In this document: piece after piece, positions 15,867-64,000 of the stretch
Numbering within the stretch: position 1 is the first letter of the stretch
Layout: the number at the start of each line of letters is the position of its first letter
Position numbers and translations under genes: made by a program
Assembly: GCA_012517325.1 (NCBI GenBank)
Contig: JAAYVF010000048.1
Coordinates: 1-64,000 of the forward strand
Origin: Myxococcales bacterium
Lineage (GTDB): Bacteria; Lernaellota; Lernaellaia; Lernaellales; Lernaellaceae
Direction: 5' to 3'
DNA length: 64,000 nucleotides
Notes under the pieces: model-generated
Database searches by the model: none
Told to the model about the DNA's origin: nothing
What the model saw: the letters and a program-made list of their open reading frames with translations, nothing else

Positions 15867-16721
15867 ATGGCGAACGAGGATCGGCAGCCGCCAAAATTCA
15901 TTCAATTCGAACGCGCCCGGCCGCATGAAGTGCGCGCAATGATCGACCGAACCCCAATCGCCTATGTTCCGTTCGGGGCGCTGGAATGGCACGGCGAGCA
16001 CGCGGCGCTCGGCTTGGACGGCATCAAGGCCGAGGCGATCTGTCGCGCCGCGGCAAAGATCAGCGGCGGCGTGTTATTTCCGCCGGTTTATTGGGGCGCT
16101 TTTCACACCCTGTCTTTTCCCTTCACCTTTTGTTATTCCAAACGCGCCATGAAGAAACTGGTGCGGCGCACCTTGAACTCGTTGGCCGATTGGGGGTTTC
16201 GCTCGATCATTCTTCTGACGGGGCACTACCCGGCGGCGCAAATTACGCTGCTTCGCGCGGAATGCCGGCGGTTGAGCCGCGCGCGCGGCATCGGCGCGCT
16301 GGGCATTCCCGAACAAGCGCTCGCCCTGGACCTGGGATATCTCGGCGACCATGCCGCCAAGTGGGAAACCTCCCTCCTCATGGCCATCGATCCGACATTG
16401 GTGGATTTATCGCGGTTGCCCGACGATACCGGATCGTTGCGCCAGCGCGGCATCGAACAGGGGATCATGGGAATCTGCCCGAAAAATACGGCGACGGCCG
16501 ACTTGGGCCGGCAGGTGCTGGACACCGTGGCTTCGCGCCTGGCCGCAACCGGAACGCGGATGCTGACCGAGGGTGAGCGACCGGCGGAAGAAATCTATCG
16601 CGCCCACCTGGCGGCGTTTCGCCGCCCGCTGGCCGCCGCGCGCCGGGCCTTCGGCGTGGAATCATCCTGGGAAGCCGTCCGATTCGTGCTCGGCAGCATC
16701 TGGCGGCAAAAACATTTGTAA
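15867..16721 (+). CDS. creatininase-family amidohydrolase
   Basis: A 284-residue protein of the creatininase/creatinine amidohydrolase family. Glu40, His42 and Asp51 show the same spacing as the metal ligands of creatininase. 'LLTGHYPAAQ' near residue 123 corresponds to the second metal-binding loop, but the Glu that follows His-Tyr in creatininase is Pro here. 'KWETSLLMAIDP' near residue 170 is also a family motif. The family is broad and includes enzymes of riboflavin-type pathways and mycofactocin maturation, so the substrate is open. AAGGAG precedes the ATG. It is divergent from the GH2 gene and followed 10 bases later by a methyltransferase. Confidence 0.8.
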   Translation: MANEDRQPPKFIQFERARPHEVRAMIDRTPIAYVPFGALEWHGEHAALGLDGIKAEAICRAAAKISGGVLFPPVYWGAFHTLSFPFTFCYSKRAMKKLVRRTLNSLADWGFRSIILLTGHYPAAQITLLRAECRRLSRARGIGALGIPEQALALDLGYLGDHAAKWETSLLMAIDPTLVDLSRLPDDTGSLRQRGIEQGIMGICPKNTATADLGRQVLDTVASRLAATGTRMLTEGERPAEEIYRAHLAAFRRPLAAARRAFGVESSWEAVRFVLGSIWRQKHL

Positions 16722-18507: not shown

Positions 18508-20289
18508 ATGAGCACCAGAAGCACCGTATTTTTCATCCTATTATGCATCGCGATCGTCGGCCTGCTCGCCGGTGCTTGTGGCGGCGGCGGCGATGAAAAC
18601 GATAATTCGCGGGTGTTGGATGACGATACCGGCGACGATGACAATCTGGATGATGACTTTACCGACGACGATGACGACGACAACGATGATAATGACGATA
18701 ACGACGACAATGACGACAATGACGATAATGACGACAACGACGACAACGACGATATCACCTATGACCCGATCGTCTGCCAAATTCCGGATCCGGAATCGCT
18801 GGGCGAAGGCCTGATGATCGGCGGCGATACACCCAGCAGTCAGATCGATGTCTACGTCTACGACGACGGCACCTGCGAACCGATCGAAGGCGCCACCATT
18901 CTTCATGGTTCCGACACCTATACGACCGATGCTTCCGGCCATGCCGTGGTGATCATGAAAAAAGGCGTCGAAAAAGTGACCGCCTGGGCGCCGAATTCCT
19001 GGGCTTGGAGTTATCAGGCGGATGCGGATGTCATGTATTTCCGTTTGCGCCCGGATGAATACAACCGGACTTACAACGATTCCGATGACGGCAGTTTCCT
19101 TTACGAGGGCGATCCCCTCGAGTTGACCAATCCGGGATTATTGGGCCTCTTCACCCAACCGCTTTATGCCGGGATCACCATCCCCGGCGTTTCTCGCCGC
19201 CATGTTCTTTCGCTCGATGATTTGAGTCTTTTCGCCAATTCGAAGTTTGAATTGACGATCGACACCGGCAGCGGTCCTGAGGTAACCGAACTGCCGTTGA
19301 ACGTTTATTTACCGGCATTGGACCTTTCCATTCCCGACGTCTTCACCATTCAAGGCGAAAACCCTTATTTTAATATTCCGGTTGACGCCGCATTATCCGA
19401 ACATCCGCTTGAAGGTTTGATCGCGCGGGTCGACGTCATTGAGGCGATCCCCGACATGGCGAGCTTACTGGAATTGATCAGTTGTATCGGCGAAGGCGGT
19501 GACATCATCGCCTGCATCGTGCCGCTACTGAATCCGCTCATCAACGACGCGTTGTCATTCGAGTACGTCGGCGTCGATCCGGCGTGGAACGGCACGGGAG
19601 CGCCCGACCTGAACACTTTCAAGCCTGCTTACAGCATCCCGTTGACGGTGGCCAACGCCTCCCCTGACTACGATTATCTGGCCGCTTTTGCCGCCGACAT
19701 TCCGAATCGGGCCCTGCTGCCGATGGGCCTTTCCATCGCGGAAGACGGTGCGGCCTCGTTGAAATACAACGTGGTGCCCGACGCCAAGTACCTGATCGCC
19801 GCCGCCCGGACCGATCTGCTGGCCTCCGATTTCACCAGCGCGAATTTCTCCTTTGCATTCACCTATTCGGATCGCATCGATCCATGGACCTCAGGGGTCA
19901 CAATCGACGCCGACACCGATTTCCTGCCGGAATTCGACGAGGCAAATACCTATTATGACGACACAACCGGACTGGTTTCCTGGGAATTGGCCGACACCGA
20001 ATCCATCACTCCGGAGCTGTACATGCTCGTCTATATCCCGGGTGCTTCCTGCCCCGGCTGCAAGGTGATTTTCGCCCAGATGCCGCCTTCGGTCACGGAA
20101 TACCAGATTCCGACCGAGGAGATGGGAATCACTCCGGCCGCGGATGACATCATCCTGCTCTTCGGGTTCAACTTCAGGGATAGCATCAACCCCGATGCCT
20201 ACGCGCCGGTCAACATCCTGGGCGAATACGTCAATGCCATCAACATGTGGACCAACTTCGACATCCTATCGTTGATTCCGACTTACTGA
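18508..20289 (+). CDS. Asp/Asn-rich lipoprotein of unknown function
   Basis: A 593-residue protein. The lipobox 'GLLAGAC' ends at Cys24, then four Gly and an acidic stutter (about residues 28-80) made mostly of DDN units. Residues 90-160 look like a carboxypeptidase-regulatory/Ig-like fold ('GATILHGSDTYTTDASGHAV'). The remainder is a beta-rich region without a family I recognise, with a Cys pair in 'GASCPGCKV' near 515. A strong AGGAGG sits eight bases before the ATG, a good promoter lies upstream and a strong terminator follows, so this is a single-gene transcript, probably well expressed. Cell-surface location is inferred from the lipobox. Confidence 0.85.
   Translation: MSTRSTVFFILLCIAIVGLLAGACGGGGDENDNSRVLDDDTGDDDNLDDDFTDDDDDDNDDNDDNDDNDDNDDNDDNDDNDDITYDPIVCQIPDPESLGEGLMIGGDTPSSQIDVYVYDDGTCEPIEGATILHGSDTYTTDASGHAVVIMKKGVEKVTAWAPNSWAWSYQADADVMYFRLRPDEYNRTYNDSDDGSFLYEGDPLELTNPGLLGLFTQPLYAGITIPGVSRRHVLSLDDLSLFANSKFELTIDTGSGPEVTELPLNVYLPALDLSIPDVFTIQGENPYFNIPVDAALSEHPLEGLIARVDVIEAIPDMASLLELISCIGEGGDIIACIVPLLNPLINDALSFEYVGVDPAWNGTGAPDLNTFKPAYSIPLTVANASPDYDYLAAFAADIPNRALLPMGLSIAEDGAASLKYNVVPDAKYLIAAARTDLLASDFTSANFSFAFTYSDRIDPWTSGVTIDADTDFLPEFDEANTYYDDTTGLVSWELADTESITPELYMLVYIPGASCPGCKVIFAQMPPSVTEYQIPTEEMGITPAADDIILLFGFNFRDSINPDAYAPVNILGEYVNAINMWTNFDILSLIPTY
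18637..18762 (+). repeat. degenerate 9-bp tandem repeat encoding Asp-Asp-Asn units
   Basis: About a dozen copies of GAY-GAY-AAY encode the acidic stretch of the lipoprotein. The third codon positions differ between copies (GAC/GAT and AAC/AAT mixed), so the amino-acid pattern is conserved better than the DNA. This argues against very recent slippage. Confidence 0.8.
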
Positions 20290-33175: not shown

Positions 33176-33211
33176 CGTTCCGCCTCGCTCGTTCGGGTTC
33201 AGGTGCGGTGA

Positions 33212-33250
33212 TAAAAAAATCCCTCGCCGGCGGAAAGCCGGTCGAGGGAT
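33212..33250 (-). terminator. terminator of the HdrD/NarI/TusA/DsrE operon
   Basis: On the minus strand a 13-bp stem with one bulged base (ATCCCTCG at 33219-33226 pairing with 33243-33250, CCGGC at 33227-33231 pairing with 33237-33241) is followed by a run of seven T. It lies 16 bases beyond the stop of the HdrD-like gene. Confidence 0.9.
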
Positions 33251-33266
33251 CTCCGACCCGAGCTTC

Positions 33267-34517
33267 TTACTTCTGGACCAAAGCCTGCGACACGAGGTCG
33301 GAGAGAAAATATACCTGGACTCCGGTCTGATAATGCTCCGCCAGATCGGTAAGCTGAGTATGGCAGTTTTCGCAGGCCGTGGCCAGCACCGACGCGCCGG
33401 TGGCCTGGAACTGCTCGGCTTTCACCTTGGCCGATTTCATCCGGAAGTCCTTTTCGCCCATCGCGACCAATCCGCCGCCGCCGCCGCAACACCAGTTGTC
33501 CTGGCGATTGGGCGTCATCTCGACGAAATCGTTTGTCAGTTGCGAAAGGATGTAGCGCGGATCCTCATAGACACCGCCGTTGCGCGCCAACTGGCAGGGA
33601 TCGTGATAGGTCAACTTGCCTTTGATCTTGCTTTTGTCCAGCTTGATCCGGCCTTCTTTCAAATACCGGGCGATCAACTCAACGAAGGAGATGACCTTGA
33701 ACGAATGCTCGCCGGTCATGTACTTCATCACCCGGTACGCGGTGCCGCATTCGCAGATTGCCACTTCCTTGATACGCAGCCGTTTGGCTTCCTCGATGAT
33801 GCGATCGGCGATCTGCTTGGTCTTGGCCGGGTTGCCGACGAACGCGCCGAAATTCACCGCCTCATAATACGATAACGACCACTTTTCACCGGCGGCGTTC
33901 ATGATGGCGGCCGCGGGAATGATCGAATGCTTCCCGGCCAGCGCCACATAGAGCACGTTGGCGTCCTGGACGTCGAGCGGAATCGCCTCTTGCCCGGCTT
34001 CACTACGCCACCGTTCCAACACTTCCGCCTCGAGGTTATGAACGGCCGTCGCGAACGAATCCTTCGTCGCCTCGATATTTTCGCCTTTGGCGACCGACAT
34101 ATCGGCCAACATCGAGAGAATCTTCGGTTCCTGATCGGCGACAATCAGCAGTTGCTTGGCGATCGACTGAATCTGCTGGGTGTCGATGCCGAACGGGCAG
34201 TAGGTCACGCAGCGCCGGCAGCCCGTGCAGGTGTAAGCGGTGTCATAGACCTTCTGCATGCAGTCGTCGGAGAATTCGACCGCTTCGCTCAGCCAGGGCG
34301 CGATTTTCCCCATGCCTTTGAAGTATTTTTCGTACAGGCGGCGGATATTCTGGGCCCGGCCCACCGGCGAATACTTGATGTCGGGCATGGACGCGTAGGC
34401 ATGGCAGGATTCGATGCACACGCCGCAGCGGGTGCAGTTGTCCAGGTACATCCGCACCGCGCGATTGAGGCGCGCGGCCAGGGTTTTGATCAGTTCCTGT
34501 TTGTTGGTTTCTTCCAT
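33267..34517 (-). CDS. HdrD/DsrK-like iron-sulfur protein with CCG domain
   Basis: A 416-residue protein with two 4Fe-4S binding motifs (Cys28-31-34-38 and Cys97-100-103-107), each ending in CP-less helices typical of heterodisulfide-reductase-like proteins. One complete CCG-type cluster site follows: 'HDPCQLARNGG', then 'WCCGGGGG' and 'CENCHTQL' near the C terminus. The first CCG repeat of full HdrD proteins is degenerate. Relatives (DsrK, TmcB, HdrD) reduce or oxidise disulfides using electrons exchanged with a membrane cytochrome b. I start at ATG 34517, just after the NarI-like stop. The partner cytochrome b and two sulfur carriers are in the same operon. Confidence 0.9.
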   Translation of the reverse strand: MEETNKQELIKTLAARLNRAVRMYLDNCTRCGVCIESCHAYASMPDIKYSPVGRAQNIRRLYEKYFKGMGKIAPWLSEAVEFSDDCMQKVYDTAYTCTGCRRCVTYCPFGIDTQQIQSIAKQLLIVADQEPKILSMLADMSVAKGENIEATKDSFATAVHNLEAEVLERWRSEAGQEAIPLDVQDANVLYVALAGKHSIIPAAAIMNAAGEKWSLSYYEAVNFGAFVGNPAKTKQIADRIIEEAKRLRIKEVAICECGTAYRVMKYMTGEHSFKVISFVELIARYLKEGRIKLDKSKIKGKLTYHDPCQLARNGGVYEDPRYILSQLTNDFVEMTPNRQDNWCCGGGGGLVAMGEKDFRMKSAKVKAEQFQATGASVLATACENCHTQLTDLAEHYQTGVQVYFLSDLVSQALVQK

Positions 34518-34519
34518 GA

Positions 34520-35236
34520 TCAGACCCTCCGGAGCCAGTTCAACGGCACGGCGAAGAACGTATGCATGATTTTGCTGAACGGCAGCAGCAGCAAAAACAG
34601 GTTGGCCAGCAGGACGTGCACCGCGATGACCACGTAATGCGAACCCATCAGGAATTCGCGCGGGTTGGCGAAAGTGAAGCGCACCAGGCTGTCGAGGTAT
34701 TTGCCGAAATCCTGCTTGGTCAGCACGAACCCGTCGGCGCCATTCCAGGAATTGGCCCAACTGATCGTGTCGCCGGTGATGAAAATCAGGAACAGCAGAA
34801 ACAGCATGAGGTAGTCGGCCGGCACCGAGATTTCCCGCACCGGCGTCCGGAAACGGCGAAACAGGAAATAGACGACCGACACCGTCACGATCACCCCGAT
34901 CGCGCCGTTGCCGAGCATGTGCTTCGATTCGGGGGCGAGAAGATTGATTTGCGGCAGCAGATCCAGGTGGCTGAGGATCAAACCGAGAATACCCAGGTGA
35001 AACAGTCCCAGAAACATCCACAGCAACGGCTGGTAACGGCGCACGGTCGGCAAGGTAAACGCTTCGATCGTGCCGACCAATGTGGGGGACGATTTTTCGG
35101 GAAATATTTTCAAAGTGTGGGTCGGCTTGGGCGATCGCCAGATGCCGACAATTTTCACCAGAACGCCGATGATGCACCAGGCGAAGGCCAGGTACACCAT
35201 CGGCACCATGACGAAATAGAAGATTTTATCGGTCAT
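34520..35236 (-). CDS. NarI-like membrane cytochrome b (DsrM/TmcC type)
   Basis: A 238-residue membrane protein with about five transmembrane helices. Histidines in 'LFHLGILGLILSH' and in 'SHYVVIAVH' / 'KIMH' fit ligands for two b-type haems, as in nitrate reductase gamma subunits and DsrM. It should pass electrons between the menaquinone pool and the HdrD-like protein encoded next, whose start lies two bases after this stop. Length is shorter than many DsrM proteins (about 330) but close to NarI (about 225). Confidence 0.88.
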   Translation of the reverse strand: MTDKIFYFVMVPMVYLAFAWCIIGVLVKIVGIWRSPKPTHTLKIFPEKSSPTLVGTIEAFTLPTVRRYQPLLWMFLGLFHLGILGLILSHLDLLPQINLLAPESKHMLGNGAIGVIVTVSVVYFLFRRFRTPVREISVPADYLMLFLLFLIFITGDTISWANSWNGADGFVLTKQDFGKYLDSLVRFTFANPREFLMGSHYVVIAVHVLLANLFLLLLPFSKIMHTFFAVPLNWLRRV

Positions 35237-35253
35237 GGCCGGTCCGTCCCGCT

Positions 35254-35493
35254 TTACTTCAGGCGTTTGACGAAAATTTTAATCAACCCGCCGCCCTGCT
35301 CGGTGCCGACCACTTCGTTGCCCGAAGTCTTGGCCCAAGCCGGGAAATCGGAAAGCGAACCCGGATCGGTGGTGTGCACCTCGACGACCTGGCCGACTGC
35401 AACCGACTTGATTTCCTGGCTGATTTTCACTACCGGCATCGGGCACGGCAGACCTTTGAAATCCAACACCTTCGTGACCGTGTAATCCGCCAT
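35254..35493 (-). CDS. tusA: TusA-family sulfur carrier protein
   Basis: A 79-residue TusA/SirA-fold protein with the active Cys17 in the family motif 'LPCPMPVVK'. TusA carries sulfane sulfur as a persulfide and hands it to DsrE-type proteins or to tRNA thiolation and molybdenum-cofactor pathways. The C terminus 'LIKIFVKRLK' is typical. It lies 14 bases from the DsrE-like gene and 17 from the cytochrome b gene, all on the minus strand, so here it probably acts in a dedicated sulfur relay rather than tRNA modification. Confidence 0.93.
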   Translation of the reverse strand: MADYTVTKVLDFKGLPCPMPVVKISQEIKSVAVGQVVEVHTTDPGSLSDFPAWAKTSGNEVVGTEQGGGLIKIFVKRLK

Positions 35494-35507
35494 TGTTTAC
35501 TCCTTCG

Positions 35508-36053
35508 TTAGATGAAAAGTTGAATGCTGGAATCCTTGGCCTCGGCCAGAAAGGTGGCCACGCCGCAAAATTCGATATTCGGATAGTCGATGATTTCCTC
35601 GTGGGTGAAGCCCATCAGGTCCATCGACATTTCGCATACCTTGATTTGCACGCCCAACTGGCCGGCAATGTCGAAGAGTTGGTCGAGCGAGGGGGCGTTC
35701 TTCTTCTTCATCAGGTCTTTCATCATCGCGGTTCCCATGCCGGCCATATTCATTTTGGAAAGCGTGGTCTTATTCCGCCCTTTCGGCAGCATCCACCCGA
35801 ACATTTTCGACATGAAATCCTTGCCTTTGGGGTTGAACTCGGGCTTGCGTAGCGCCGCGGTACCCCAAAAAGTGAAGAAAAGCACAACCTTCATGCCCAT
35901 GGCCACCGCGCCGGTCGAGATGATCATGGCGGCCAGTAGTTTGTCGAGGTCGCCGGAAAAAACGATCATCGAAAGCTTGTTGTCCGGCCCCGGCCGCATC
36001 GCATCAACTTGTTGTTTTAACTCGGCAAATTGTTTTTCAAATTCGGCGCTCAT
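35508..36053 (-). CDS. DsrE/DsrF-like sulfur-transfer protein (DsrE2 type)
   Basis: A 181-residue member of the DsrE/F/H-like family, of the longer DsrE2 form. The core shows 'LSMIVFSGDLDKLLAAMII', a hydrophobic 'AMGMKVVLFFTFWGTAAL', and a conserved Cys in 'IKVCEMSMDLMGF' near residue 139, the position of the sulfur-binding Cys in DsrE2 proteins; a second Cys follows near 164. An N-terminal coiled-coil-like helix precedes the core. It is the first gene of the sulfur operon and has a good promoter upstream. Confidence 0.9.
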   Translation of the reverse strand: MSAEFEKQFAELKQQVDAMRPGPDNKLSMIVFSGDLDKLLAAMIISTGAVAMGMKVVLFFTFWGTAALRKPEFNPKGKDFMSKMFGWMLPKGRNKTTLSKMNMAGMGTAMMKDLMKKKNAPSLDQLFDIAGQLGVQIKVCEMSMDLMGFTHEEIIDYPNIEFCGVATFLAEAKDSSIQLFI

Positions 36054-36102
36054 TTCTTTTTCCTTTCGCCCATCTTTTCAAGAGCCGCATGATAGCGTTT
36101 AG

Positions 36103-36131
36103 AATATATAGCTAAATCCATATATATGCAA
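36103..36131 (-). promoter_or_regulatory. candidate promoter of the DsrE/TusA/NarI/HdrD operon
   Basis: Read on the minus strand: TTGCAT, 17 bases, TATATT. The region is markedly AT-rich compared with the surroundings. The -10 lies 50 bases before the DsrE-like start. Confidence 0.55.
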
Positions 36132-50071: not shown

Positions 50072-52390
50072 TCAACACCCGCAACCGGAATCGCCCTCGT
50101 CTTCTTCGGTTTGCGGCGCCAGATCGCCGGAGGTGTCGTCATCATCATCGGGCGGGAAGAAATCGTCGTTGTCGTCGTTGTCATCATTGTCGTCATTGTC
50201 GTCATCGTCGTCATCGGTGCCGGTGTCGTTATCATCGTTGTCGTCGTTGTCGTCGTTATCGTCGTTGTCGTCGTCATCGCCGTTCGGGATACATTCGTCC
50301 GTTTCCTCCACGCAGGTCTCGTCGGCGTCGCAGGGCTCATCCCCGTGGGTACACTCATTGTTGCCCTCGTCACATTCCTCGGCGCCGTCACAGAAGAACC
50401 CGTCGTCGGGGCAACGCGGATTGCCCACGCCGTATTCGCTCTCGCAGGAACCCGACACGCACATTTCCGCGCCGGTGCACCACAGGCCGTCATCGGTACA
50501 GGCAATGCCGTCCAGGTCGGTCCAGGAATCGGCGGAATTCGCCGGATCGCATTCCTGGCATTCGTTGTCCGGGTTCTTCTCGCCGTCGTCGTAACAGACC
50601 GCGCCGATCAGGCAGCCGAGGCAGTCCGGGTAGGTCATTTGGGCGAAATACGCCGGATCGAAATCCGCCGTTTGATACGGCCAATACGTCAGGTTGCTTT
50701 CATTTTCTTCGTAAGCGATCAGCATCCCAATCGTATCTCCAGGAGATCCATAGAGCTCGCCGCCGGTCAGGTCGATGGCGATTTCCACTCGCACGTTGCC
50801 TTTACCGGTCATTCCATAAGCCGCTGAAATGTTGGTCGGTATCGTGGGACTGCAAAATCCCGATTGCGTATACGGCCAGAAGAAATAGCTGATCGTGCCG
50901 GAAGTGTCGTCGATCAGGTACGACCCTTCCTCCTCGCAATCAATCGGCCATTCGCCGTCGTTGTTGTTGTCGAACAGCAGATAGACTTCATCATGATTGT
51001 GCGCGACTGTGTCGTCTATCGCGTCAATCGCCAGGTAGAGATGATCGGCGTCGGCCAGCCAGTAAGCATAAAAACTGCGATTGCCATAAACGGGAACGAG
51101 CAAGGCATTATCCCATTCGGATTCAGCGAATGTCCCGTCGATGGTCGGTGGTGTATCGGTCCGACCGGGAGTGAATTGACTTTGTTGTTCCGCCGGCAAT
51201 TGCATGACTCCGAAGGTGGTGGGGTATCGATAATCGTACCCGGTCGTCGGCCAGTTCACGGTTTCGCCCGCATTCCATTCCTGATAGGAAAAGGTCGCAC
51301 CGATTTCCGCGCCCGGCTCGCCGGAGAGCTCATCGCCGGTCAGGTCGAAGCGAAATTCGTATTCCAGATGACCTTTGGCGTTGTAAGACATCCAGGAAAC
51401 AACGTGGTCAGCCGTCCCCCAGCCGCAATCGGCGCCGCCGAGCACTCGGGCGGCGAATAAATTGGCCAGATTCCCCGCATCGTAACCGATCGAAAACGTG
51501 CCCTCCGACCCGCAGGAGGATGGATATTGGCCGTCGAAATTGTTGTCGAAATTGAAAATGATCGCATCATTGTCGATGAACCCGGGGTCGTTGGTCAGCA
51601 GCGCGCCGTAAAGAAAATGAGCATCCATCAGGTAGTAAAAAGTCACGTCGCTCGAGGTGCCGACCAGATTCATTGTCGCGGCACCGGTCCATTCGTTCGC
51701 ATAGATGAGGCCGTCGATCTTCGGCGGGATGTTGGCCCAGGCGATATCGAGTGTTTCGGGCTCCGTGGCGAAAGTCAGATCGGTCCAGGTAGACGGATCA
51801 AGGGGCGCCGCGCCGGTCGGCCAATAGTTCTGCGCTTTGAGGGTATTGGTGTCCATGGCCATCAAAGCAAAACCAAGGGTTTCGCCCGGTCCGCTCGCCA
51901 TGGGTGAGTCCGCCAAATCAACCCGCAGTTCGAATTGCATATGGTCATCCAACGAGGACGCCAGCGTGGTGTAATCAGTGGCTGATAGAGTGCCGCAGGG
52001 GCCTCCGGTCGACAACACTAAAAATTCACGAGTTCCGTCATACCGGAAGTAGAGGTAGCCTTCAAAGTTCGGACCGTTGCAATCGGCCGGATAGGAGCCG
52101 TTGTTATCGCGATCAATGAAAAGGGCCACGAGATCGGTAGCGCCGGCGACAGTGTCGCCGGTAACATCGAAAGCCACATAAAGATAATCTTCATCGGATA
52201 AGAGGTAGGCCGTATAGGCGGGAGTGCCAGTCGAATCCACAACCTGCTCGGCACCATCCCATTCGCCTTCCGAAATGACGCCGTCGATGGTCGGCAGCGT
52301 CCGAACCCATTTGGTTTCCAAAGCCTGGACGGAACCGGCGGCGAAAAGAAGAACCAGGATCAGCGTCCACGAAAATAGATACCTTTTCAT
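50072..52390 (-). CDS. secreted protein: three CBM9/DOMON-like domains, Cys-rich region, Asp-rich tail
   Basis: A 772-residue secreted protein. A signal peptide ('LILVLLFAAGSVQA') is followed by three similar domains beginning 'IDGVISEGEWDGA' (about residue 35), 'IDGLIYANEWTGA' (about 225) and 'IDGTFAESEWDNA' (about 420), typical of CBM9/DOMON-like sugar- or haem-binding folds. Then comes a Cys-rich region (about 585-690) with 'CDAD', 'CVEETDEC' and similar pairs, an Asp/Asn stutter, and the extreme C terminus 'GDSGCGC'. The tail lacks a transmembrane helix. The ATG is the one that yields the signal peptide. A candidate promoter lies 147 bases upstream. Function unknown; surface attachment through the C-terminal Cys is speculative. 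Confidence 0.85.
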   Translation of the reverse strand: MKRYLFSWTLILVLLFAAGSVQALETKWVRTLPTIDGVISEGEWDGAEQVVDSTGTPAYTAYLLSDEDYLYVAFDVTGDTVAGATDLVALFIDRDNNGSYPADCNGPNFEGYLYFRYDGTREFLVLSTGGPCGTLSATDYTTLASSLDDHMQFELRVDLADSPMASGPGETLGFALMAMDTNTLKAQNYWPTGAAPLDPSTWTDLTFATEPETLDIAWANIPPKIDGLIYANEWTGAATMNLVGTSSDVTFYYLMDAHFLYGALLTNDPGFIDNDAIIFNFDNNFDGQYPSSCGSEGTFSIGYDAGNLANLFAARVLGGADCGWGTADHVVSWMSYNAKGHLEYEFRFDLTGDELSGEPGAEIGATFSYQEWNAGETVNWPTTGYDYRYPTTFGVMQLPAEQQSQFTPGRTDTPPTIDGTFAESEWDNALLVPVYGNRSFYAYWLADADHLYLAIDAIDDTVAHNHDEVYLLFDNNNDGEWPIDCEEEGSYLIDDTSGTISYFFWPYTQSGFCSPTIPTNISAAYGMTGKGNVRVEIAIDLTGGELYGSPGDTIGMLIAYEENESNLTYWPYQTADFDPAYFAQMTYPDCLGCLIGAVCYDDGEKNPDNECQECDPANSADSWTDLDGIACTDDGLWCTGAEMCVSGSCESEYGVGNPRCPDDGFFCDGAEECDEGNNECTHGDEPCDADETCVEETDECIPNGDDDDNDDNDDNDDNDDNDTGTDDDDDDNDDNDDNDDNDDFFPPDDDDDTSGDLAPQTEEDEGDSGCGC
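50157..50279 (-). repeat. degenerate 9-bp tandem repeats encoding Asp-Asp-Asn units
   Basis: Two blocks of GAY/AAY repeats near the 3' end of the secreted CBM9-like gene, split by a Thr-Gly-Thr spacer. As in the lipoprotein at 18508, synonymous positions vary between copies. Confidence 0.75.
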
Positions 52391-52536
52391 CTTCAACCTC
52401 GATGATTGTTGTTGCCCTGCTTCGCAAAATCGCATTCCGGTTCAAAGATGGTTGCAGTGCCCTGATCATGCTTTCCAGCCTTGCCGATGGCCGGTTAATT
52501 CAAAATTCTTCATTGATGAAAATGGAATGCCGTTAC

Positions 52537-63295: not shown

Positions 63296-64000
63296 TTATC
63301 GGCCGCCGTTCAACGCTTCCAGGAACGCCTCGAGACGCGTGCCGATCTGGCCTTCCGACCACATGCGTTCGTCGGCGATGTCGCCTTCGATCACCACGCC
63401 CGGCACGCTCAGCCGCTCGGTCAGCGCGTCGCGCAGGTCGTATTGCCCCAGGCTGTACGCCTTGCAGGACCGCGCCGAATGCATGACGAAACCGTCGCAT
63501 TTGAACTTGCGGATCAGCCCTTCCAGCATCGACAGCCGCGTTTCGAAGCCGCGGTTGATATACGGCGCCAGGTAGTTGTAGGCCATCGCCTCGAACGCGT
63601 CGCCCTGGGTCATGTCGCGTTCCATGGACCAACTGGCCGTATAGGTCGCGGTGACGACCGCCGCGTTGCGCTCGGCCAGCTTGTTGAACATGTACTTGGT
63701 CGCGTACCACATCGGGATGTTGTCGAAGAGCAGGCGGTGCTTTTCGTTTTCGACCGCCGAAATGCCCTGCTCCACCCGTTCGCGCATTTCCACCAGCAGC
63801 GACTTGTAAAGGTCGACCGTGCGCTGATCGCCGCGCAGCGTGACGATCGGCCCCATCAGGAAGAAGGTGTCGAAACTGCTCAGGGGCGCCGGCACGGCGC
63901 CGCAATAATCGAGGCACTCCATCCACAGGCGGATGCCGTCGCGCGAGCGCTCGAGCACTTGAATGAATTTCTGCTCGTCGAAGGCCCGGCCGGTGATTTC
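63296..64000 (-). CDS. 2-hydroxyacyl-CoA dehydratase / benzoyl-CoA reductase-type subunit, C-terminal part
   Basis: The frame stays open to the right edge, so the 5' part is outside. The visible 234 residues match the HgdB/BcrB/BadD family, with 'ITGRAFDEQKFIQVLERS' at the left of the visible protein, 'FDNIPMWYATKYMFNKLAE' in the middle, and 'MHSARSCKAYSLGQYDLRDAL' near the end (a Cys followed by KAYSLGQ, as expected for a 4Fe-4S ligand). These proteins form two-subunit enzymes that dehydrate 2-hydroxyacyl-CoA or reduce aromatic CoA esters with an ATP-driven activator. The partner subunit and activator would lie to the right. Oxygen-sensitive, anaerobic metabolism is implied. Confidence 0.9.
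   Translation of the reverse strand, partial: EITGRAFDEQKFIQVLERSRDGIRLWMECLDYCGAVPAPLSSFDTFFLMGPIVTLRGDQRTVDLYKSLLVEMRERVEQGISAVENEKHRLLFDNIPMWYATKYMFNKLAERNAAVVTATYTASWSMERDMTQGDAFEAMAYNYLAPYINRGFETRLSMLEGLIRKFKCDGFVMHSARSCKAYSLGQYDLRDALTERLSVPGVVIEGDIADERMWSEGQIGTRLEAFLEALNGGR

Follow-up and report, generated by a model that had tools for sequence, protein, structure and literature searches.

A conserved four-gene operon joining DsrE2 and TusA sulfur carriers to a DsrMK/HdrDE-like redox pair, present in genomes with and without DsrC

The analysed stretch of 64,000 nucleotides (the window) possesses a minus-strand operon in which genes for two sulfur carriers, a DsrE2-like protein and TusA, are followed by genes for a membrane cytochrome b and an Fe-S protein of the DsrK/HdrD type (the DsrK-like protein). 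The cassette is real and conserved, recurs in many anaerobic bacteria, and is apparently undescribed so far; a full-text search limited to open-licence papers found no earlier description of the four-gene unit. Judging from the sequences, we give somewhat better than even credence to reading the operon as coding for a quinone-linked persulfide (or mixed disulfide) oxidoreductase that has its own carriers and acts on TusA/DsrE2-bound sulfur.

The operon begins with the dsrE2-like gene (35508..36053, 181 aa; PF13686, E 2.4e-49, 167.7 bits against a cut-off of 25) and continues with tusA (35254..35493, 79 aa, LPCPMP motif; PF01206, 1e-21) and a gene for a NarI/TmcC-type di-haem cytochrome b (34520..35236, 238 aa; PF02665, 1.4e-15). 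The last gene encodes the DsrK/TmcB/HmcF-related Fe-S protein (33267..34517, 416 aa; CCG domain PF02754, 1.3e-15, plus PF13183). The intergenic gaps measure 14, 17 and 2 nt, and ribosome-binding-site-like purine-rich stretches precede the DsrE2, TusA and DsrK-like genes. Directly after the stop codon of the last gene lies a rho-independent terminator (33205..33266, minus strand), a strong hairpin of -30.8 kcal/mol (z -3.55) with a 12-pair stem and U7; the four genes presumably form one transcript. An earlier note on this DNA had described the same genes in this order, bounded by a promoter and a terminator. Pfam backs every family, including the CCG domain, the hairpin bears out the terminator, and the four-gene unit is thereby confirmed in the window. 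The promoter fared worse: a scan of the operon region returned one site against 2.1 expected, that site lying within dsrE2, and a TTGCAT-17-TATATT stretch at about 36100-36130 is at best a plausible match. As the scan did no better than shuffles, a promoter is not claimed.

Conservation of individual residues was read from alignments of 57 to 67 relatives. In the DsrE2-like protein, Cys140 is invariant among 57 aligned sequences and Cys163 is kept in 77% of them. The PF13686 domain and the fully conserved C140 place the protein in the DsrE2 (PF13686) family, at a score under the NCBIfam DsrE2 equivalog cut-off (77 vs 210); its closest solved structure is 3PNX (106 bits), and it is the one DsrE2 of the window genome. 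The window TusA carries the CPxP active-site cysteine that is the hallmark of its family. This residue, C17 within CPMP, is the single cysteine of the protein and is invariant among aligned relatives. One cysteine alone is likewise found in 54 of the 59 TusA sequences of the operon family, which excludes DsrC-like intramolecular disulfide or trisulfide chemistry for TusA alone and leaves a persulfide or an intermolecular (mixed) disulfide as the substrate. The earlier suggestion that TusA might replace DsrC is thus possible, but the replacement would be chemically different. The window genome encodes a second TusA-like protein on a different contig (L121, contig C66, about 16205-16405); its TusA-like domain lies near an apparent cysteine desulfurase and a SelB-type factor, and the protein is perhaps of the YedF selenium type.

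The cytochrome b shows six hydrophobic peaks, two of them overlapping. In a phmmer alignment its residues H80, H90, H207 and H225 match the paired histidines of E. coli NarI, which we take to be the four haem ligands of that protein, and all four are conserved at 98-100% among relatives, in agreement with the membrane cytochrome proposed earlier. The DsrK-like protein possesses eight cysteines for two [4Fe-4S] clusters, all conserved, and a single CCG site (C308-x34-C343C344-x37-C382xxC385) whose cysteines are conserved as well; a CECGT half-motif occupies positions 255-259, with C255 present in 94% of relatives. The CCG cluster site, the two [4Fe-4S] sites and the haem-b membrane partner that characterize DsrMK/HdrDE-like redox pairs are therefore all present, and the operon plausibly encodes a pair of this kind with a DsrC-free mechanism.

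An AlphaFold model of the DsrK-like protein (pLDDT 85) submitted to Foldseek retrieved EtfD, LutA and HdrB as the nearest solved folds, with M. smegmatis EtfD (9ojn) as the top match. EtfD of M. smegmatis also has a NarI-like membrane part. Pairs of a CCG protein and a cytochrome b are at work in ETF:menaquinone oxidoreductases too, so the fold alone is no proof of disulfide chemistry. The structural match could be taken to indicate an EtfD/EMR-like electron-entry complex whose CCG protein would merely relay electrons, with the sulfur carriers being incidental or regulatory. We consider this very improbable. The operon has two separate genes plus sulfur carriers, DsrE2 and TusA are almost never absent from the unit, no ETF genes occur among its recurrent flanking families (the ones inspected), and the window genome encodes a separate fused NarI-like/Fer4/CCG protein of the EtfD type on contig C122.

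Despite sharing their domains, the DsrK-like protein cannot be assigned to any of the characterized families. It reaches 262 bits against an NCBIfam DsrK equivalog cut-off of 400, 234 against 735 for TmcB and 222 against 750 for HmcF, and identity with TmcB or HmcF was rejected on these scores. A phylogenetic tree groups the Fe-S proteins of the operon in a clade of their own (99/96), separate from TmcB, from HmcF and from DsrK, whose clade has 100/100; the operon proteins carry CECGT where these three families have xECGH. Together with the lack of DsrC and DsrAB in the window genome, this led us to discard the protein as the DsrK of DsrMKJOP. The overall interpretation in the earlier note stands as regards the operon content, the terminator and the missing DsrAB/DsrC; it is qualified in that the Fe-S protein is not DsrK and the promoter was not confirmed.

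In working principle, DsrMK is the nearest known system (PMC10504309): the DsrMK/DsrMKJOP complex, a DsrC-trisulfide:menaquinol complex, likewise combines a cytochrome b with an Fe-S CCG protein and is expected to link quinone to a protein-bound S-S bond. The operon differs in having CENC instead of CIC, CECGT instead of GECGH and a NarI/TmcC-like cytochrome, and also in that 13 of 51 carrier genomes, the window's included, have neither DsrC nor DsrAB. Besides DsrMK, TmcBC and HmcEF come closest in profile score among such pairs of cytochrome b and CCG protein; their CCG spacing is similar to that of the operon, but they differ in the CHNC and ECGH motifs and fall in separate clades. For TmcB, an interaction with DsrC has been predicted (PMC10553843). 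Inspection of the listed operon flanks showed no cytochrome c of the tmcA/hmcA type.

We scanned 84,980 species genomes for the unit, requiring one of two exact peptides, AMGEKDF or CENCHTQ, which biases apparent conservation at these two sites. At least 72 further loci carry it, a lower bound because exact-peptide seeds reach close relatives. Carriers are mostly Desulfobacterota, with Eisenbacteria, Spirochaetes and one Clostridiales MAG in addition, and include the isolates Desulfacinum infernum and Rectinema subterraneum, a cultured spirochaete. More than 1.9 kb of upstream sequence is available for 57 loci, and 53 of these keep the complete set of four genes in unchanged order on one strand; the exceptions are L060 and L061 (no detected DsrE2), L065 (rearranged or frame-broken) and L078 (partial DsrK-like gene). 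The co-occurrence is not due to chance. A Desulfobacterales genome (bin36) that carries the main type also has a divergent second copy, again in the order DsrE2-TusA-cytochrome b-DsrK (L113:4638-7410), whose DsrK-like protein is 44% identical and has ECGH in place of CECGT; this copy likely represents a second subfamily. The distance matrices of the four proteins agree with one another (r 0.78-0.94), which indicates joint inheritance or transfer of the whole unit, although such agreement by itself does not show protein contact. The closest relatives of the window DsrK-like protein, at 76% identity, are Desulfarculaceae proteins, which suggests that the operon moved between phyla. A search for plasmid-borne copies gave no match at E 1e-60.

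The window genome (5.25 Mb, 134 contigs, 96.75% complete) contains neither DsrC nor a sulfite reductase (NIR_SIR) domain according to family searches, and the absence of DsrAB and DsrC noted from the window thus extends to the whole assembly. A survey of other genomes, which the earlier note had proposed, shows that the four genes do co-occur elsewhere without DsrC: it is absent from 12 of 50 carrier genomes, Rectinema subterraneum among them, and none of the 12 has a NIR_SIR domain, while three sulfate-reducing carriers searched alongside do. Most DsrC-less carriers are MAGs of undefined completeness, the Rectinema isolate and the near-complete window genome being exceptions. The unit is not confined to such organisms, as the other 38 carriers possess DsrC. 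In six sulfate-reducing carriers a true DsrK is encoded elsewhere (692-765 bits), whereas in Rectinema subterraneum the operon copy is the only DsrK-like protein. This distribution indicates that the unit stands outside the Dsr pathway without being limited to genomes that lack it.

Given that DsrK interacts with DsrC (PMC3397948) and that DsrC occurs in most carriers, the cytochrome b/CCG pair might serve DsrC in sulfate reducers as an extra DsrMK, with DsrE2 and TusA just feeding sulfur to DsrC or to biosynthesis. As a general explanation this is quite unlikely: it is impossible in the window genome and the 12 DsrC-less carriers, the six sulfate reducers already own a true DsrK, and the operon family does not have the xECGH and CIC features of DsrK. 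In those carriers that have DsrC, it could nevertheless be the real partner.

A MenA-like prenyltransferase gene adjoins a polyprenyl diphosphate synthase gene in the window genome, so that menaquinone, proposed earlier as the quinone pool, is likely in the host but not proven. The futalosine route was rejected for this genome, as PF02621 is absent and the MenA-like gene was found instead. Rectinema subterraneum has MqnP/MqnL/UbiX-like menaquinone genes (L116:197-3134); MqnA/MqnD (PF02621) was not found in its genome. The host phylum is represented by seven genomes in the set, and one of the remaining six, G004, shares the four genes of the window operon; its DsrE2, cytochrome b and DsrK-like proteins are 66-78% identical to those of the window, and it has no NIR_SIR (PF01077) domain. 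Elsewhere in the window, two genes (18508-20289 and 50072-52435) encode proteins that are predicted to be exported and have long low-complexity linkers rich in Asp/Asn (DDNDDNDD), and Asp-rich stretches occur in G004 too. A terminal ORF (63296-63958) appears by eye to encode a subunit of the 2-hydroxyacyl-CoA dehydratase/benzoyl-CoA reductase type.

Several types of genes recur next to the unit. An ArsR-type regulator lies immediately upstream in eight of the nine loci of the window's clade with sequence there; several of these regulators have LLC and C-terminal CxxxC cysteines, whereas the Eisenbacteria ArsR does not. Upstream of the unit in the sulfate-reducer clade, 41 of 45 loci encode a MarR regulator (for example, L042:3537-4076) whose three near-invariant cysteines comprise QCC and a third one. 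The ArsR-type proteins SqrR and BigR sense persulfides via cysteines (PMC12170894), and by analogy the operon-linked regulators may do likewise; the MarR proteins are candidate sulfur or redox sensors. A FadL/TodX-type outer membrane porin is encoded directly downstream in 25 of 50 sulfate-reducer-clade loci (for example, L045:7258-8619) and is a possible entry route for a hydrophobic substrate, conceivably sulfur; the leading open-licence papers matched on elemental-sulfur uptake do not mention FadL. Small DsrE-family genes, perhaps of the DsrEFH type II kind, follow directly in L022 (7477-8438), L030 (7503-8432), L027 and L031. Minus-strand "families" produced by the flank clustering proved to be shadow frames and were set aside. 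Next to the window and G004 copies there is no regulator, porin or DsrE-family gene of these kinds, and the missing adjacent regulator counts against the favoured reading.

Other known clusters share the carriers with a different surrounding. In the YTD cluster (yedE-tusA-dsrE), recently re-read as yeeE-tusA-dsrEFH type II (PMC12998232, PMC13293266), TusA and DsrE-family carriers also occur together in anaerobic sulfur bacteria, and transfer from TusA to DsrE to DsrC was shown in vitro for it (PMC13293266). In place of YedE (PF04143), the operon has a redox pair together with a protein of the DsrE2 type; YedE was found neither in the window genome, ruling out YTD membership, nor in 9 of 12 DsrC-less carriers. 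In Metallosphaera and Acidithiobacillus, dsrE3A-dsrE2B-tusA genes accompany sHdr (PMC4175335), so that DsrE2/TusA genes adjoin a heterodisulfide-reductase-like complex there as well. That complex is soluble and multi-subunit, in contrast to the two-subunit membrane cytochrome b/DsrK-like pair, and no lipoate-linked genes were seen by the operon.

In the oxidoreductase reading that we favour, DsrE2 would pick up sulfane sulfur and hand it to Cys17 of TusA, giving TusA-S-SH. The cytoplasmic DsrK-like protein would then cleave the S-S bond at its CCG [4Fe-4S] site with exchange of two electrons, which would travel between this site, the two [4Fe-4S] clusters, the haems of the di-haem cytochrome b and the quinone pool. 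In the most likely, reductive direction, quinol would be consumed and TusA-SH and sulfide released, and the unit may serve sulfur, polysulfide or thiosulfate-sulfane respiration, or act as a sink for excess sulfane sulfur, independently of DsrC and DsrAB. In support of this reading stand the gene order in the surveyed loci and in the second copy, the conserved residues, the AlphaFold/Foldseek matches, the 13 genomes free of DsrC and sulfite reductase, the cysteine-bearing regulators, the DsrE-family neighbours and the MenA-like gene. We infer the contact between carrier and CCG site, the substrate, the direction and the quinone partner.

The same components could run oxidatively: sulfide or thiol sulfur would be loaded as persulfide onto TusA/DsrE2 and the electrons passed to quinone, making the unit a cytoplasmic counterpart of sulfide:quinone reductase. 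Persulfide chemistry is reversible in principle, sulfur-oxidising cascades employ TusA and DsrE proteins (PMC4175335; PMC13293266), and DsrE-family genes adjoin the unit in some Desulfobacterales. We nevertheless regard this direction as unlikely, because a DsrC-less spirochaete isolate without a sulfite reductase domain, like other sulfite-reductase-free carriers, offers sulfide oxidation no evident continuation; reduction is probably the physiological direction.

A bolder proposal, which we put forward tentatively and with well under even confidence, is that the operon proteins constitute a fourth branch beside DsrK, TmcB and HmcF, in which a single-cysteine carrier, TusA loaded by DsrE2, replaces DsrC. 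The unit would then be a complete, Dsr-independent and phylum-crossing four-gene cassette for sulfane-sulfur respiration, and the CECGT site would be an adaptation to persulfide rather than protein trisulfide.

CCG proteins of the DsrK type are taken to be DsrC partners, and with the cassette in DsrC-less organisms this reading fails somewhere; the cassette points to a testable alternative partner. Annotators who take DsrK-like matches as a sign of sulfite or sulfate reduction would be misled here. The unit is directly testable because it comprises only four genes and is present in a cultured spirochaete without Dsr genes. It would also provide a cytoplasmic, quinone-linked reduction of carrier-bound sulfane sulfur, a poorly defined step in sulfur reduction and disproportionation.
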